From Corynebacterium glyciniphilum AJ 3170 (lineage in GTDB: Bacteria > Actinomycetota > Actinomycetes > Mycobacteriales > Mycobacteriaceae): a stretch of DNA of 64,000 nt. Position 1 is the stretch's first letter, and each line of letters starts with the position of its first letter. Shown piece by piece: positions 49,636 to 54,653 of this stretch. Location: the NCBI RefSeq assembly GCF_007673095.1, contig NZ_VDYZ01000013.1, positions 1 through 64,000 of the forward strand, in the 5' to 3' direction. The notes under the pieces are model-generated. The model did no database searches. It was not told where the DNA came from and worked only from the letters and a program-made list of their open reading frames with translations. Position numbers and translations under genes: made by a program.

Positions 49636-49720
49636 GCCCTGGTGGCGGAATTGGCAGACGCGCTGCACTCAAAATGCAGTGTCTTCGGGCGTGTGGGTTC
49701 GAGTCCCACCCAGGGCACCA
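49636..49720 (+). tRNA. tRNA-Leu (anticodon CAA)
   Basis: 85 nt. The acceptor arms GCCCTGG and CCAGGGC pair, followed by A and an encoded CCA (49718-49720). The anticodon loop CTCAAAA gives anticodon CAA (49670-49672), flanked by CTGCA/TGCAG. The D-loop has TTGGCAGACG, the T-arm GTGGGTTCGAGTCCCAC, and the long variable arm TGTCTTCGGGCGT is typical of leucine tRNAs. Reads UUG codons. Confidence 0.97.
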
Positions 49721-49723
49721 CAC

Positions 49724-49757
49724 AACCCCGCCGGTCTCTACGGAGTCCGGCGGGGTT
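49724..49757 (+). terminator. Terminator of tRNA-Leu
   Basis: Positions 49724-49734 and 49747-49757 form a perfect 11-bp stem with a 12-nt loop, beginning 3 nt after the tRNA CCA and running into TTTCT. It also lies just before the convergent phosphoesterase stop at 49781. Confidence 0.85.
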
Positions 49758-49780
49758 TCTGCGTTACACGGGGTGCGGCT

Positions 49781-50368
49781 TCACCGACGTACGAGTGCCG
49801 CCAGGTCGTCTTTCCTCGCCGGCCGCATCCCCCACGCGTCGAGACTGACGCAGAGTTGCAGTGTCCCGGACGTCGAGTAGCTGACGTTGTCAGTGGAATG
49901 GGTGTGCCCGTGGATGACAGGTGCACCGCAGTCCCTCGGCCGCCACTGGACGTGGCGGTCCGGACTCGTATGGTCGCCGTCATAGGGGAAGTGGTTGACG
50001 ACCGCCCTTCGTCCCTCGATCTTGAGGGTCATCGCCGATGAGACCGTGTCAAACGTGCGGAGGAAGCGGGAGTGGCCGGTCAGGGACCGGGCATGCATCG
50101 GATGGACGGCGTCGTGATTTCCGGCCAGCAGGTGGAGCCGTGCCCCGGTGGCGTCGCGCACGTCCGCCAGCAGGTGCAGCGCACGGTCCTCCTGGTCAGG
50201 TATGCCCGAGGAGATGTCACCGAGGACGAAGAGGCGGTCGCCCGGCACCAGGGCGCCTGTCAGGTTCCGGAACAGGACCGCATCGTGGTCCGCAGTGGTG
50301 GCGAATCCCCTCGCCGTAGCCGGGGTGAGGTGTCCGAAGTGCGGGTCCGCCGTAAACCAGTCCGTCAT
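49781..50368 (-). CDS. Calcineurin-like metallophosphoesterase
   Basis: 195 residues with every metal motif of the superfamily: DPHFGH (residues 8-13), LGDISSG, AGNHD, HFPY and HGHTH. Size and the HFPYDGDHTSPDRH segment resemble small phosphoesterases often found near phage or accessory genes. Its substrate (nucleotide or phosphoester) is unknown. The ATG at 50368 has TACCAT seven nt upstream, so a leaderless mRNA is likely. Confidence 0.88.
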   Translation of the reverse strand: MTDWFTADPHFGHLTPATARGFATTADHDAVLFRNLTGALVPGDRLFVLGDISSGIPDQEDRALHLLADVRDATGARLHLLAGNHDAVHPMHARSLTGHSRFLRTFDTVSSAMTLKIEGRRAVVNHFPYDGDHTSPDRHVQWRPRDCGAPVIHGHTHSTDNVSYSTSGTLQLCVSLDAWGMRPARKDDLAALVRR

Positions 50369-50375
50369 TCATTCC

Positions 50376-50381
50376 ATGGTA
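50376..50381 (-). promoter_or_regulatory. -10 box (TACCAT) of a leaderless promoter
   Basis: On the minus strand TACCAT ends 7 nt before the phosphoesterase ATG at 50368, with no Shine-Dalgarno sequence. Confidence 0.45.
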
Positions 50382-50460
50382 CTTGCTCCACCGATACGCT
50401 ACATTGGGTGGGCAAACTGTCGGGAGTCGCCCGGCGCGCTATTTCCCCAGGAGGAAAACC

Positions 50461-50607
50461 GTGGACCTTCCCATCGCTGAAGCTGTCGAGACCTCTGGCG
50501 CCTACGCGTCCAACGCACTGTTCATCGCGGGATCGGTCCTGTCGTCGCCGGTCGGTCTCATCGGCGACCTGGGGTCTTTCTTCAGTTCATTCCTGCCGCG
50601 TTTCTGA
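50461..50607 (+). CDS. Short amphipathic protein, possible mycomembrane porin-like peptide
   Basis: 48 residues, MDLPIAEAVETSG to the C-terminus FFSSFLPRF. The GTG start is preceded by the strong ribosome site AGGAGGAAAACC. There is no signal peptide; residues 18-48 are hydrophobic and rich in Ser, Gly and Phe. Size, the lack of a signal peptide and composition recall corynebacterial PorA/PorH channel peptides (45-57 residues), but I see no direct sequence match. It is convergent with the glutaminase gene (5 nt) and divergent from the phosphoesterase. An own promoter (TACATT near 50401) is possible. Function is not established. Confidence 0.65.
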   Translation: MDLPIAEAVETSGAYASNALFIAGSVLSSPVGLIGDLGSFFSSFLPRF

Positions 50608-50612
50608 CGGGC

Positions 50613-51872
50613 CTACTGGTCGTCGATCTCCGCTGCTGTGGTGGCCACTGTGGTCCCGTCCTCGAACCTCCGCTTTCCGAGGACGTTGTTCGGGTCGACG
50701 ACGGCGACCTTCTTGCCGTTCTCCCGGATCCGGCGCAGCCCTTCCTTCACCATGCGACGTCCGACCGGGTTGCTCTCGGTGACCCGTCGGGCGTCGATGA
50801 TCACCCGTGGTGTGGTGATGTCCTGGTTCTCCGCGGCTGTCAGGAATTCCTCGGCACCGGAGAAGTCGAGGCCACCCTGCAGACGGAACACCGTGGTCCT
50901 GCCGCGGGTCCGGATGCCACGCACCGAACTACCCTTACGGGTCACCGCGGACATCAGGTGCAGCCCCATGTCCTCGGACAACGCCCGGAAGATCTTCGCG
51001 CCCCGGACACTGTTCCCCGATTCGTCGAGGCGCGGTGAGAAGGTCGCGATCCCCAACTGTCCGGGCAGGGTTCCCATCAGACCGCCCGCGACCCCGGACT
51101 TCGCCGGAATACCTACGCTGGCCATCCATCTCCCCGCTCCGTCGTACATCCCCGCCGACGCCATCACCGCCTGCACCTGCCGGCACACCAACGGTTTCAG
51201 GATCCGTTCACCGGTGAAAGGTTGAATCCCGCCGAGTGCGAGAGTCGCCCCCATCACCGCCAGGTCCTTGACGGTGACCCGGATCGCACACTGCCGGGTG
51301 TAGCTGGCCACGGCATCCTCCGCGGAATCCACGATGACGTCGTAACTGCGCAGCATGTGGGCCAGTGCCAGGTTGCGGTCGGCGGTACCGGTCTCGGACT
51401 CCGTGACATTCTCGTCCACGGTGAGTTGACGCCCCGCCAGCCGGGAGAAGTAGTCCACGATCACCTCAACCCGGTCGTCGACCGACGAGTCCTCCCCGTT
51501 GATGAGCTGATTGACCGCGATGGCTCCCGCATTGATCATCGGGTTGACCGGGCGGTGGGTCCTGCCGTCGAGGGAGAGCTCGTTGAAGGCCTCGCCGGAC
51601 GGCTCCATGCCCACCGTCTCGATCACCTTCTCCACCCCGCAGTCCTGCAGTGCTGCGGCGTAGGCGAAGGGCTTGGAGATCGACTGCATGGTGAACTCGC
51701 GCTCATCGTCACCGACGCTGTAGATCCATCCCTGGTTGGTGCACATGGCCAACGCCAGCGGTGTGGGGTCCGCCTTCGCGAGCTCAGGGATATAGTCCGC
51801 TACCGCCCCGTCATCGTCGTCTCGGACTTGGTCAAGAATGTCATTGAGATAGTCTTCGACGAGAGAATCCAT
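50613..51872 (-). CDS. glsA: Glutaminase with C-terminal STAS domain
   Basis: Hydrolyses glutamine to glutamate and ammonia. The catalytic part (about 1-305) is a serine-dependent, beta-lactamase-like glutaminase with the SxxK motif SISKPFAY, NPMINAGAI, and VGIPAKSGVAGG. Residues from about 320 to 419 form a STAS domain (TVFRLQGGLDFSGAEEFLTA, PRVIIDARRVT), which may sense nucleotides or partner proteins. Such fusions occur in actinobacteria. ATG at 51872 has TAGTCT eight nt upstream and no Shine-Dalgarno. It is divergent, by 44 nt, from an amino-acid ABC transporter that may import its substrate. Confidence 0.92.
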   Translation of the reverse strand: MDSLVEDYLNDILDQVRDDDDGAVADYIPELAKADPTPLALAMCTNQGWIYSVGDDEREFTMQSISKPFAYAAALQDCGVEKVIETVGMEPSGEAFNELSLDGRTHRPVNPMINAGAIAVNQLINGEDSSVDDRVEVIVDYFSRLAGRQLTVDENVTESETGTADRNLALAHMLRSYDVIVDSAEDAVASYTRQCAIRVTVKDLAVMGATLALGGIQPFTGERILKPLVCRQVQAVMASAGMYDGAGRWMASVGIPAKSGVAGGLMGTLPGQLGIATFSPRLDESGNSVRGAKIFRALSEDMGLHLMSAVTRKGSSVRGIRTRGRTTVFRLQGGLDFSGAEEFLTAAENQDITTPRVIIDARRVTESNPVGRRMVKEGLRRIRENGKKVAVVDPNNVLGKRRFEDGTTVATTAAEIDDQ

Positions 51873-51880
51873 GGGGCCCG

Positions 51881-51909
51881 AGACTAACAGAATCCGGCGC
51901 CGATATACT
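51881..51909. promoter_or_regulatory. Face-to-back divergent leaderless promoters
   Basis: On the minus strand TAGTCT (51881-51886) lies 8 nt before the glutaminase ATG. On the plus strand TATACT (51904-51909) lies 7 nt before the ATG of the binding protein at 51917. Both -10 boxes sit in a 44-nt gap, so each -35 zone falls on the other gene's promoter or coding start. Polymerases should compete, linking the two genes. Confidence 0.5.
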
Positions 51910-51916
51910 TCCCCCC

Positions 51917-52879
51917 ATGACACCCCACTCCGTTCCGCGACCGGGCAGATCCGCCCGTAAGGTCGGCTCGGTCCTGGGGGCCCTGATGATCTCGGCGTCC
52001 CTGGCGGCCTGCGTCACCAACGAGGAGTCCGGTAATCCCGACGGTTGGGTCGACACCCTACCCGATCCCGTTCCTGCCCTCCAGGAACTGCTCCCCCAGG
52101 AGTACCGCGACTCCGGACACATCTCGGCCTCGACCAACCCGACATTCCCGCCCAACCAGTTCAAGGATCCTTCCGGGAACATCATCGGCTTCGAGGTGGA
52201 TCTGGTCCGCGCCGCCGGTGCCGTCCTGGGGGTGGACGTCGGTTTCCAACAGCAGGACTTCAACCTGATCCTGCCGTCGATCAACGCCGGCACCGTGGAC
52301 ATCGGCACGTCCGGGTTCTCCGACACCGAGGAGCGCCGGCAGTCCTATGATTTCGTGGACTTCTACACGTCGGGCATTTCCTGGGCGACGACGCCGGGCA
52401 AGACGGTTGACCCGTCCGATGCCTGCGGTCTCACCGTGGCGGTTCAGAAGGGGACCTACTCCGACACCGACGATGTGCAGGTCAAGTCCGATCAGTGTGT
52501 CGCCGCCGGTCGCCCGGCAATCAACAAGCTGGTCTACGACTCCGCCAATGCCGCGGCAAACGCCACGGCATTAAAGCGTGCCGACGCGATGAGTTCCGAC
52601 TCCGCGGTCACCGACTACGCCATCCAGTTGTCCGACGGGAAACTGGTCCCTGCGGGGGGCGCCTTCGACACCACGCCTTTCGGTTGGGCGTTCGCCAAGA
52701 ACTCCGACCTCATCCCCGCATTCGCGGCAGCGCTGGAGTTTCTGATCACCTCCGGCCAGTACGAGGAGATCCTCGAGCCGTGGGGCCTGACCGACGGCGC
52801 CGTGGACGCCGTGACCGTCAACACGCAGGACTATCCCCTCCCTGCCGCAGCATCCGCCGACGAAGGAGCGACTTCATGA
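51917..52879 (+). CDS. Amino-acid ABC transporter substrate-binding lipoprotein
   Basis: 320 residues. Lipoprotein signal with ASLAAC (lipid-modified Cys near residue 32), then a bacterial extracellular solute-binding family 3 domain: TNPTFPPNQFKDPSGNIIGFEVDLVRA near residue 73, ERRQSYDFVDFY, GLTVAVQKGT, and the GAFDTTPFGWAFAKNSDLIPAF hinge region. This family binds polar amino acids. Opposite a glutaminase gene, so glutamine or glutamate is a fair guess. The stop overlaps the permease start by 4 nt. Confidence 0.92.
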   Translation: MTPHSVPRPGRSARKVGSVLGALMISASLAACVTNEESGNPDGWVDTLPDPVPALQELLPQEYRDSGHISASTNPTFPPNQFKDPSGNIIGFEVDLVRAAGAVLGVDVGFQQQDFNLILPSINAGTVDIGTSGFSDTEERRQSYDFVDFYTSGISWATTPGKTVDPSDACGLTVAVQKGTYSDTDDVQVKSDQCVAAGRPAINKLVYDSANAAANATALKRADAMSSDSAVTDYAIQLSDGKLVPAGGAFDTTPFGWAFAKNSDLIPAFAAALEFLITSGQYEEILEPWGLTDGAVDAVTVNTQDYPLPAAASADEGATS

Positions 52880-53877
52880 GCGACCACCCCCGGGCGCAGC
52901 AACGTACCCGCCCGACCGACAACGACGTCGTCCCTCTGCGCCACCCCGGCCGGGTCATCGCATCGGTGATCCTGCTGATCCTGGTCGCCCTCTTCGTGTG
53001 GGACGCGGCACACAACGACGCCTACGGCTGGGGAACCTACGCCTCCTACCTCTTCGACACGCGCATCGCGGAAGCGGCGCTGCACACACTCGCGCTCACC
53101 GTCCTGGCCATGATCGTCGGTGTGGTGCTGGGAGCGGTCCTGGCGGTCCTGCGGATGTCACCCAACCCGGTGACCAGCGGCATCGCCTGGCTCTACCTCT
53201 GGATCTTCCGTGGCACCCCGGTGTATGTGCAGCTGGTGTTCTGGGGTCTTCTGGGCGCGATCTACCAGACGGTGAACCTCGGATTCACCGAGGTCTCACT
53301 GGAGTCGGTGCTCTCCAATTTCTTCTGGCTCGCCGTGATCGGCCTGGGCCTGAATGAATCTGCCTACATGGCGGAGATCGTCCGCGCCGGCATCCAGGCC
53401 GTCCCTGAAGGACAGTCCGAGGCGTCGAAGGCGCTGGGCATGACGTGGTGGCAGAACATGCGGCGCACCGTGCTCCCCCAGGCCATGCGGATCATCATCC
53501 CCCCGACCGGCAACGAGCTGATCAGTCTCCTGAAGACCACCTCACTGGTGATCGCCCTGCCCTACGCCGGTGAGCTCTACGGACGGTCCATGGACATCGC
53601 CTACGCCATGTTCGAACCGGTCCCGATGCTGCTCGTCGCCGCGACCTGGTACCTGGTGATTACCTCGATCCTGATGGTCGGCCAGCACTACCTGGAGCGC
53701 TTCTACTCCCGTGGGTCCTCCCGGGCGCTGACCAGCCGGCAGCTTGCCGCACTCACCGACGCAGAGGGGTTGCCCCCGCTGAACATCACCGTGGAGGACC
53801 CCGGCAACCCACGCACCGGTGCTGCGCCGACCGACAGTGGACACGACAGCGGAAACAACAAGGAGAACGGTCGATGA
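52876..53877 (+). CDS. Amino-acid ABC transporter permease
   Basis: 333 residues, six or so transmembrane helices. N-terminal 35 residues hydrophilic, then the His/Glu/Gln permease domain (about 70-290) with FRGTPVYVQLVFWG and the EAA loop EASKALGMTWWQNMRRTVLPQAMRIIIPP that docks on the ATPase. The C-terminal 45 residues form a soluble tail rich in Pro, Asp and Ser. It overlaps both neighbours by 4 nt (ATGA), so the three transporter genes are translated together. A single permease suggests a homodimer. Confidence 0.93.
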   Translation: MSDHPRAQQRTRPTDNDVVPLRHPGRVIASVILLILVALFVWDAAHNDAYGWGTYASYLFDTRIAEAALHTLALTVLAMIVGVVLGAVLAVLRMSPNPVTSGIAWLYLWIFRGTPVYVQLVFWGLLGAIYQTVNLGFTEVSLESVLSNFFWLAVIGLGLNESAYMAEIVRAGIQAVPEGQSEASKALGMTWWQNMRRTVLPQAMRIIIPPTGNELISLLKTTSLVIALPYAGELYGRSMDIAYAMFEPVPMLLVAATWYLVITSILMVGQHYLERFYSRGSSRALTSRQLAALTDAEGLPPLNITVEDPGNPRTGAAPTDSGHDSGNNKENGR

Positions 53878-54653
53878 GCCCCCAGCCCGCCACCCCGATG
53901 ATCGCCGTCAAGGACGTGTGGAAACGCTACGGACGACTTGACGTCCTCAAGGGCATCGACCTGGAGGTTCCCGCCGGCGGGGTCACCTGCCTCATCGGCC
54001 CCTCCGGTTCCGGAAAGTCCACGCTGCTGCGGTGTGTCAACCACCTGGAGAGCATCGACGCAGGACGCATCGAGGTCAACGGGGACCTCATCGGATACCA
54101 GGAGCGCAACGGTCGTCTCCACCAGATCTCCGAGCGTGAGGCCTCCCGCCAACGCGCCGACATCGGCATGGTCTTCCAGCAGTTCAACCTGTTCACCCAC
54201 CGCACCGTGCTCGCCAACATCATCGAGGCCCCGGTGAAGGTCAAGGGGATCCCGAAGGCGGAGGCAGAGGCCACCGCCCGTGAGCTGCTGTCGATGGTCG
54301 GCCTGGCGGACAAGGCTGATGCATGGCCCGTCCAGCTGTCCGGCGGCCAGCAGCAGCGGGTGGCGATCGCCCGCGCCCTGGCCATGAAACCCAAGCTGAT
54401 GCTCTTCGACGAGCCGACCTCCGCCCTGGACCCGGAACTCGTCGGCGAGGTCCTCAACGTGATGCGGCGTCTCGCGGACGACGGTATGACCATGCTGGTG
54501 GTGACCCACGAGATGGGTTTCGCCCGGGAGGTGGCGGACGAGGTGGCCTTCATGGACGGCGGACGCATTGTCGAGCACGGCCCGGCCCGTCAGGTGATCA
54601 CCGATCCCCGACAGGAGCGCACCCGGTCCTTCCTGTCGAGCATCCTCGACTGA
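53874..54653 (+). CDS. Amino-acid ABC transporter ATP-binding protein
   Basis: 259 residues with Walker A GPSGSGKSTL, Q-loop QQFNLF, signature LSGGQQQRVAIARAL, Walker B LMLFDEPTSALDPEL and the H-loop THEM. Closest in style to GlnQ/polar amino-acid ATPases. The insert YQERNGRLHQISEREASRQR between Walker A and the Q-loop is seen in several actinobacterial members. Last gene of the three-gene transporter unit. Confidence 0.95.
   Translation: MSPQPATPMIAVKDVWKRYGRLDVLKGIDLEVPAGGVTCLIGPSGSGKSTLLRCVNHLESIDAGRIEVNGDLIGYQERNGRLHQISEREASRQRADIGMVFQQFNLFTHRTVLANIIEAPVKVKGIPKAEAEATARELLSMVGLADKADAWPVQLSGGQQQRVAIARALAMKPKLMLFDEPTSALDPELVGEVLNVMRRLADDGMTMLVVTHEMGFAREVADEVAFMDGGRIVEHGPARQVITDPRQERTRSFLSSILD

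Follow-up and report, generated by a model that had tools for sequence, protein, structure and literature searches.

Channels of the mycolic-acid outer membrane (the mycomembrane) have been characterised in a few Corynebacterium species only, and the main channel genes are described as lying between groEL2 and ppk2 (PMC3792995, PMC5944148). In PorA of C. glutamicum, S15 is given as the residue mycoloylated by MytC, and a published model gives the protein two helices whose linker contains S15 (PMC11927696). Homo-oligomeric channels are reported for PorACj (C. jeikeium, 40 residues) and PorACur (C. urealyticum) (PMC3792995, PMC5944148). ProtX of C. glutamicum is another small protein, mycoloylated at Ser37 according to one report, which gives corynomycolate additions of about 478-530 Da (PMC5310785), and presented in another as a mycomembrane protein without a recognisable signal sequence; the latter source calls the route by which signal-less porins cross the plasma membrane still unclear (PMC12632848).

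The window, that is, the whole stretch of 64,000 nucleotides that was analysed, holds a gene for a 48-residue peptide that can be compared with each of these. Like PorA (45 residues), the peptide is short, has at most one basic residue, is negatively charged, signal-less, and (by prediction) helical, and it has a stretch resembling the LS(S/G)xGLIG which in PorA surrounds the mycoloylated S15. PorA differs in belonging to the groEL2-ppk2 locus and in having two modelled helices against the one predicted here; moreover, most PorA sequences have a C-terminus of LIGL type, which is missing from the peptide, and the peptide has no PorH gene alongside. With PorH of C. glutamicum (57 residues) it has in common the MDL start, the negative charge, and the helical character, whereas there is no C-terminal Ser equivalent to S56 of PorH. 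PorACj and PorACur are likewise single small, signal-less, helical peptides, and in their case one such peptide suffices for a channel. PorACj also has a ribosome site of its own (AGGAG), as the peptide has, but lies between groEL2 and ppk2. ProtX is by description likewise small and signal-less, but it is mycoloylated on its penultimate Ser.

A small gene under natural selection

The reading frame is a real gene, which natural selection has preserved in a few Corynebacterium species. A preliminary description of this DNA had placed a 48-residue frame with a strong ribosome site here, and the coordinates as well as the site (Table 1) proved exact; four of the five closest orthologues have AGGAGG as well, and the fifth has AGGAGA. 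A longer reading of 74 residues from a TTG at 50383 was rejected because the upstream frame differs between species and no extension is conserved. The CGCTACATTGG block ahead of the gene is a candidate promoter element, judged from its conservation and its -10-like hexamer. A sigma-70 consensus scan of positions 50300-50750 on both strands returned neither promoters nor terminators; the scan is insensitive and missed the peptide gene's own promoter as well.

Table 1: Features at and around the peptide gene (positions in the window).
Feature	Position	Strand	Remarks
tRNA-Leu	49636-49720		upstream of the peptide gene
calcineurin-like metallophosphoesterase	49781..50368	-	divergent from the peptide gene; Pfam matches under curated cut-offs; context only
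conserved CGCTACATTGG block with -10-like TACATT	50397..50407	+	identical in 5 of 5 aligned species
Shine-Dalgarno AGGAGG	50449..50454	+	6 nt ahead of GTG
48-aa peptide gene MDLPIAEAVETSGAYASNALFIAGSVLSSPVGLIGDLGSFFSSFLPRF	50461..50607	+	GTG start, 48 codons, TGA stop; orthologues, purifying selection, predicted helix 5-42
glsA glutaminase (Pfam PF04960)	50613..51923	-	convergent with the peptide gene, whose stop is 5 nt away; context only

Clear orthologues (E<1e-10) occur in 7 of 242 Corynebacterium genomes: that of the window (G000), Corynebacterium sp. CNJ-954 (G163), C. glyciniphilum AJ 3170 (G066), G177, C. kalidii (G084), G019, and Candidatus C. faecigallinarum (G047). Conservation in related genomes had been set beforehand as a check, and since orthologues exist beyond the strain of origin, the gene is not confined to it. 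Sixteen positions, including the start, are invariant across the seven orthologues. The dN/dS ratios of the five closest ones range from 0.05 to 0.30 in 10 pairwise comparisons, one of which comprises 3 substitutions only. The DNA of the region is 93.8% identical to that of CNJ-954, 90.2% to that of C. glyciniphilum, and 84.6% to that of C. kalidii.

Twenty other Corynebacterium genomes matched at E<=0.1, their best E being at least 0.002, and were judged chance. The weak matches in G126, G202, G137, and G088 were rejected; they are 45-residue frames which run antisense to an aminotransferase-like gene in G126 and lie in near-identical DNA in the other three. Among 401 genomes outside the genus, sampled across the family, there was no convincing match. 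Profile matches in other genera at E 0.002-0.008 are most likely chance. They include three at E 0.002-0.004 from another genus of the family, in G537 (loci L169 and L172) and G303 (L170); the frames concerned count 121 codons in two cases and 670 in the third, and these matches too are probably chance. The window peptide has no match in Pfam, NCBIfam, PHROG, or PADLOC, and the best match among solved structures (E 0.08) was taken as chance. Published descriptions of the family were not found by title or abstract start in a search whose coverage leaves out most of the subscription literature. The peptides form a clade-restricted micropeptide family without described function.

By coordinates, glsA adjoins the peptide gene closely and in convergent orientation in all seven carriers. 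In G047 the 1.1 kb around the peptide contain no metallophosphoesterase gene, and there is no operon partner beside the peptide gene. Past glsA, at about 51917-54653, is a set of genes recognised by eye as an amino-acid ABC transporter. In four non-carriers (G216, G233, G121, and G203) tRNA-Leu(CAA) and a TetR-like gene come immediately after glsA, with no peptide. In the glsA tree, the seven carriers and these four non-carriers make up one supported group of 11, within which the carriers form two clades and the non-carriers a third; the branching order of the three is not resolved by the tree, and the carrier label requires two changes. From the tree and the peptide-free loci it follows that the gene is either old in the group or has one or two gains or losses behind it, at the site on the tRNA side. 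The stretch from glsA to tRNA-Leu(CAA) is variable: it holds the peptide and the phosphoesterase in the window (49636-50613), nothing in the four sister genomes, and the peptide without the phosphoesterase in G047 (loci L116, L117, L118, and L123). The glutaminase itself shows a C-terminal STAS-like domain with weak Pfam matches under cut-off.

Relatives of the peptide exist outside this chromosomal place. The window peptide as query retrieved 54-codon frames in G163 (E 0.035) and G066 (E 0.046). Their E-values of 5e-18 and 9e-18 in a later profile follow by construction, because that profile already contained both paralogues. A profile built independently, from the seven orthologues without the paralogues, finds them at E 9e-6 and 2e-5 when scaled to a whole genome, and it finds a second copy on the CNJ-954 contig at E 5e-5 and a start-less remnant at E 0.014. 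The match spans residues 20-46, with GS.LSSP.GLIGDL...LP in common. One copy is encoded on plasmid pCgly1 as a 50-residue protein annotated as hypothetical (WP_158407422.1), 213 nt upstream of a serine protease gene on the same strand. The two copies on the CNJ-954 contig are surrounded by a protein of the cutinase family and by three of trypsin type, one of which stays below the Pfam cut-off; the signal peptides of these proteins were judged by eye. A search of plasmids with a paralogue gave one relative, that on pCgly1, and with the window peptide matches at E=5 only; viral contigs searched with a paralogue gave none. Between them, L062 (CNJ-954 contig C21, 4719-11898) and L063/L078 (pCgly1) thus show the paralogues amid secreted trypsin-like proteases and a cutinase, and the CNJ-954 contig looks island-like and has transposase-like frames (by eye).

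Likeness to the described porins and the state of their locus

The traits of small mycomembrane proteins are present in the peptide: it is short, poor in basic residues, negative, predicted to be alpha-helical, and signal-less by eye. The absence of a signal peptide, noted in the preliminary description, agrees with what is visible in the N-terminus MDLPIAEAVETS, likewise by eye. The hydrophobic Ser/Gly/Phe-rich half that it mentioned is the C-terminal one (8 S, 5 G, and 5 F in the 48 residues of the whole peptide), and the size near that of PorA and PorH is borne out, as their lengths given above show, with a charge that is also near. The window peptide has one basic residue and a net charge of -3; family members have 0-1 Lys/Arg and -3 to -4, compared with net charges of -4 in PorA, -8 in PorH, and between -4 and -6 in four porins of the groEL2 locus (the G121 sequence entering this comparison, alignment A4, and the small-porin search with 42 of its 46 residues). 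The maximum 19-residue Kyte-Doolittle mean is 1.58-1.87 in six family members, compared with 1.26 in PorA and 1.08 in PorH.

AlphaFold2, applied to nine family members, predicts a single helix over residues 5-42 with a mean pLDDT of 82 and a pTM of 0.38. The amphipathic character claimed earlier holds modestly: the hydrophobic moment of the window peptide exceeds that of shuffles (p=0.038), and p<0.05 is reached in just two of the six family members computed. On the predicted helix, invariant residues are biased to one face, both in nine sequences (R=0.59, p=0.030), where the paralogues carry indels inside the helix, and in the seven orthologues (R=0.46, p=0.038); the conservation moment has p=0.050. 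This one-face lean is suggestive only. S25 is invariant in all nine family sequences, and the residue matching S28 is Ser in eight; the exception, G047, has no Ser at 28 or 29 and reads VIAAPFG instead of VLSSPVG.

Membership in the PorA or PorH family was addressed with profiles. PorA-like frames had been picked by a pattern requiring Ser-Leu or Ser-Ser and a Leu-rich end, and PorH-like frames likewise by pattern. The PorA set counts 25 rows (24 of 30 PorA-like frames plus one more), of which profile A5 takes 18; the PorH set has 18 rows. The small-porin set has 14 (four in alignment A4, one cut to a later Met), its likeness to PorACj being one of locus and size, and matches PorH by profile at 88.6% and E 3e-6. 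Profile A5 detects PorA at E<1e-4 in 10 of 40 genomes, some of which are sources of its rows. Against the peptide it gave no match at E<=1 in any of the seven carriers; the sole match in a carrier, at E 0.74 in G047, falls in an unrelated 417-codon frame. In A5, which joins very divergent PorA-like proteins from groEL2-ppk2 loci, S15 and L40 are the only invariant columns, an invariance that is partly by construction because the selection pattern favours Ser and Leu.

In hhalign, the family scored 14.6 against PorA (E 0.017, probability 2.6%, 17 columns). No column shuffle reached this score in a first 100 and 6 did in a further 400 (6/500 overall), so that the larger test weakened the claim of PorA-likeness. 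The score against PorH was equalled by 9 of 100 shuffles and that against the small groEL2-locus porins by 16 of 100, and the family with its columns reversed scored 15.6 against the latter, above the real 14.6 against PorA. The stretch LSSPVGLIGDL of the window peptide resembles the LSSxGLIGxx around S15 in several PorA rows. Ten of the 25 PorA rows and 5 of the 8 family rows contain the motif LS[SGND]x(1,2)G[LIVF][LIVF], which also arises in 1,670 of 200,000 shuffled versions of the window peptide. This resemblance is a lead and not homology. Of the profile search proposed in advance, then, the PorH score lies within noise, the PorA profile does not match, and what stands is a weak shared stretch with PorA. 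A PorA/PorH label is not supported, given the different locus, the missing PorA profile match in the seven carriers, and the absence of PorH from carriers (0 of 7 in a search at E<=0.01 that was positive in 31 of 242 genomes); judged by these comparisons, neither name ought to be given to the family.

At the usual porin locus, the groEL2-ppk2 gap measures 166 nt in the genome of the window and contains no porin frame, the peptide gene being located beside glsA instead. Gaps of 165-177 nt without a porin frame are found in five of the seven carriers (the own genome, G163, G066, G177, and G084). The carrier G047 and the sister species G216, G233, and G121 have a porin-like frame of 37-46 residues between groEL2 and ppk2; the locus of G019 was left out, since ppk2 is matched there from residue 121 onwards only, in a 186-codon frame that probably marks a contig end. 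The profile of small groEL2-locus porins found none elsewhere in the five empty-gap carriers, where its best E-values, 0.008-0.095, fall in frames of 334-356 codons. These five carriers represent one clade and therefore one event at most.

A wider survey of the gap covered 93 of 236 ppk2-bearing genomes in a non-random choice (33 chosen or best-scoring, and 60 hand-picked down the list); 14 of the 93 stretches, several of them holding PorA-like frames, were dropped because groEL2 lay outside. An empty gap, defined as shorter than 370 nt and without a porin-like frame, was found in 23 of 79 judged stretches and in 18 of 73 non-carriers, so that such a gap is no rarity and loss of the groEL2-linked porin is not tied to the peptide. 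These 18 short porin-free gaps in non-carrier Corynebacterium genomes include L249, L263, L251, and L215. Among the 56 longer gaps, six (L203, L211, L216, L219, L230, and L231) appear by eye to be without a porin-like frame, and the frame filter may therefore miss porins.

Possible functions of the peptide

The genome of the window contains eight PF00756 matches above cut-off, a family that is unspecific by itself since it is also above cut-off in 11 of 14 control genomes. In a tandem pair at C437, one member combines an Esterase domain with LGFP repeats, which we take to be the build of mycoloyltransferase A; this assigns the A type only, and MytC is not assigned.

Taking together the build and charge of the peptide, the mycoloyltransferase A-type protein, and a porin locus that is empty in five carriers out of seven, the best single reading is a family of porin-like mycomembrane helices, which we prefer tentatively and which means working like the known porins rather than belonging to them. 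The gene would then encode a helical envelope peptide working like PorA, PorH, and PorACj. It would be exported without a signal peptide and would sit as a self-associating helix in the mycolic-acid outer membrane, probably anchored via O-mycoloylation of a Ser of GSVLSSP (S25, S28, or S29), and might form or support a permeability channel. The conserved gene, predicted helix, porin-like composition and charge, restriction to a few related Corynebacterium species, and empty porin locus count in its favour, and so do the lack of PorH in all carriers, the one-face lean of the invariant residues, the stretch resembling that around S15 of PorA, and the paralogues beside secreted proteases and a cutinase. 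Against it are the failure of the PorA profile, the low hhalign probability with its higher-scoring reversed control, the case of G047, which lacks Ser 28/29 yet keeps a porin-like frame at the groEL2 locus, the modest amphipathicity and high hydrophobicity, the want of an operon partner, the empty gaps in non-carriers, and the single clade to which the five empty-gap carriers belong. The candidate mycomembrane channel peptide proposed in the preliminary description is partly supported: the conserved, signal-less, predicted helical product of porin-like size and charge is retained, and a PorA/PorH family label finds no support. A further step, namely, that the C. glyciniphilum clade lost its groEL2-linked porin and that the glsA-linked family, also plasmid-borne, supplies the mycomembrane channel instead, seems to us unlikely.

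The main rival, which follows closely and which we regard as possible, places the product in the plasma membrane: a micropeptide that spans it once as a helix and serves to regulate or stabilise some membrane protein. Many bacterial micropeptides act in this way. The hydrophobicity, which exceeds that of PorA and PorH, suits a plain membrane helix, as do the one predicted helix and the sole Arg near the C-terminus; in G047 the rest of the peptide is kept without a Ser at 28/29, and the ABC transporter set lies beyond glsA. However, neither gene directly next to the peptide encodes a membrane protein, glsA being convergent and the phosphoesterase absent beside the G047 peptide, and the paralogues lie among secreted enzymes. 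These same paralogues, on a plasmid and on an island with transposase-like frames and adjoining secreted proteases, recall a leaderless peptide that is secreted and either surface-active or bacteriocin-like, for which a signal-less Gly/Ser/Phe-rich helix would also be suited. Such a role is improbable, as the net negative charge with 0-1 basic residues is unlike that of most membrane-lytic peptides, no immunity or maturation gene is recognisable directly adjoining (ORF lists of the window and of L062, by eye), and the gene, which keeps its chromosomal position in seven species, was apparently inherited vertically.

The preliminary description had also named a toxin-like peptide as an alternative. 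A type I toxin, i.e., a small hydrophobic peptide silenced by an antisense RNA, would agree with the size, the hydrophobicity, and the plasmid-borne paralogue on pCgly1, and is more improbable still: the ribosome site is strong, the gene has long been conserved at one place, PADLOC has no match, and no promoter or terminator was found on either strand of 50300-50750, the last being a weak point because the scan misses the gene's own promoter. Least tenable is a spurious frame without product. The frame is indeed short and matches no family, but the low dN/dS of all ten pairs, a reading frame conserved in seven species, and a pCgly1 homologue that is an annotated gene (WP_158407422.1) leave it hardly any probability.

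If the glsA-linked family did take over from a lost groEL2-linked porin, the peptides would constitute an unrecognised and partly mobile family of minimal helical porins. A separate family with a plasmid copy would show that the porin content of a cell can change through plasmid transfer, and it would provide an independent substrate for the study of the export route and of the rules of O-mycoloylation. Should the product prove to be a micropeptide of the plasma membrane, the gene is an ordinary one, specific to its clade. As for porin genes at their usual place, the porH-porA pair is tandemly duplicated between groEL2 and ppk2 at L227 (G012), and both PorA copies are identical.
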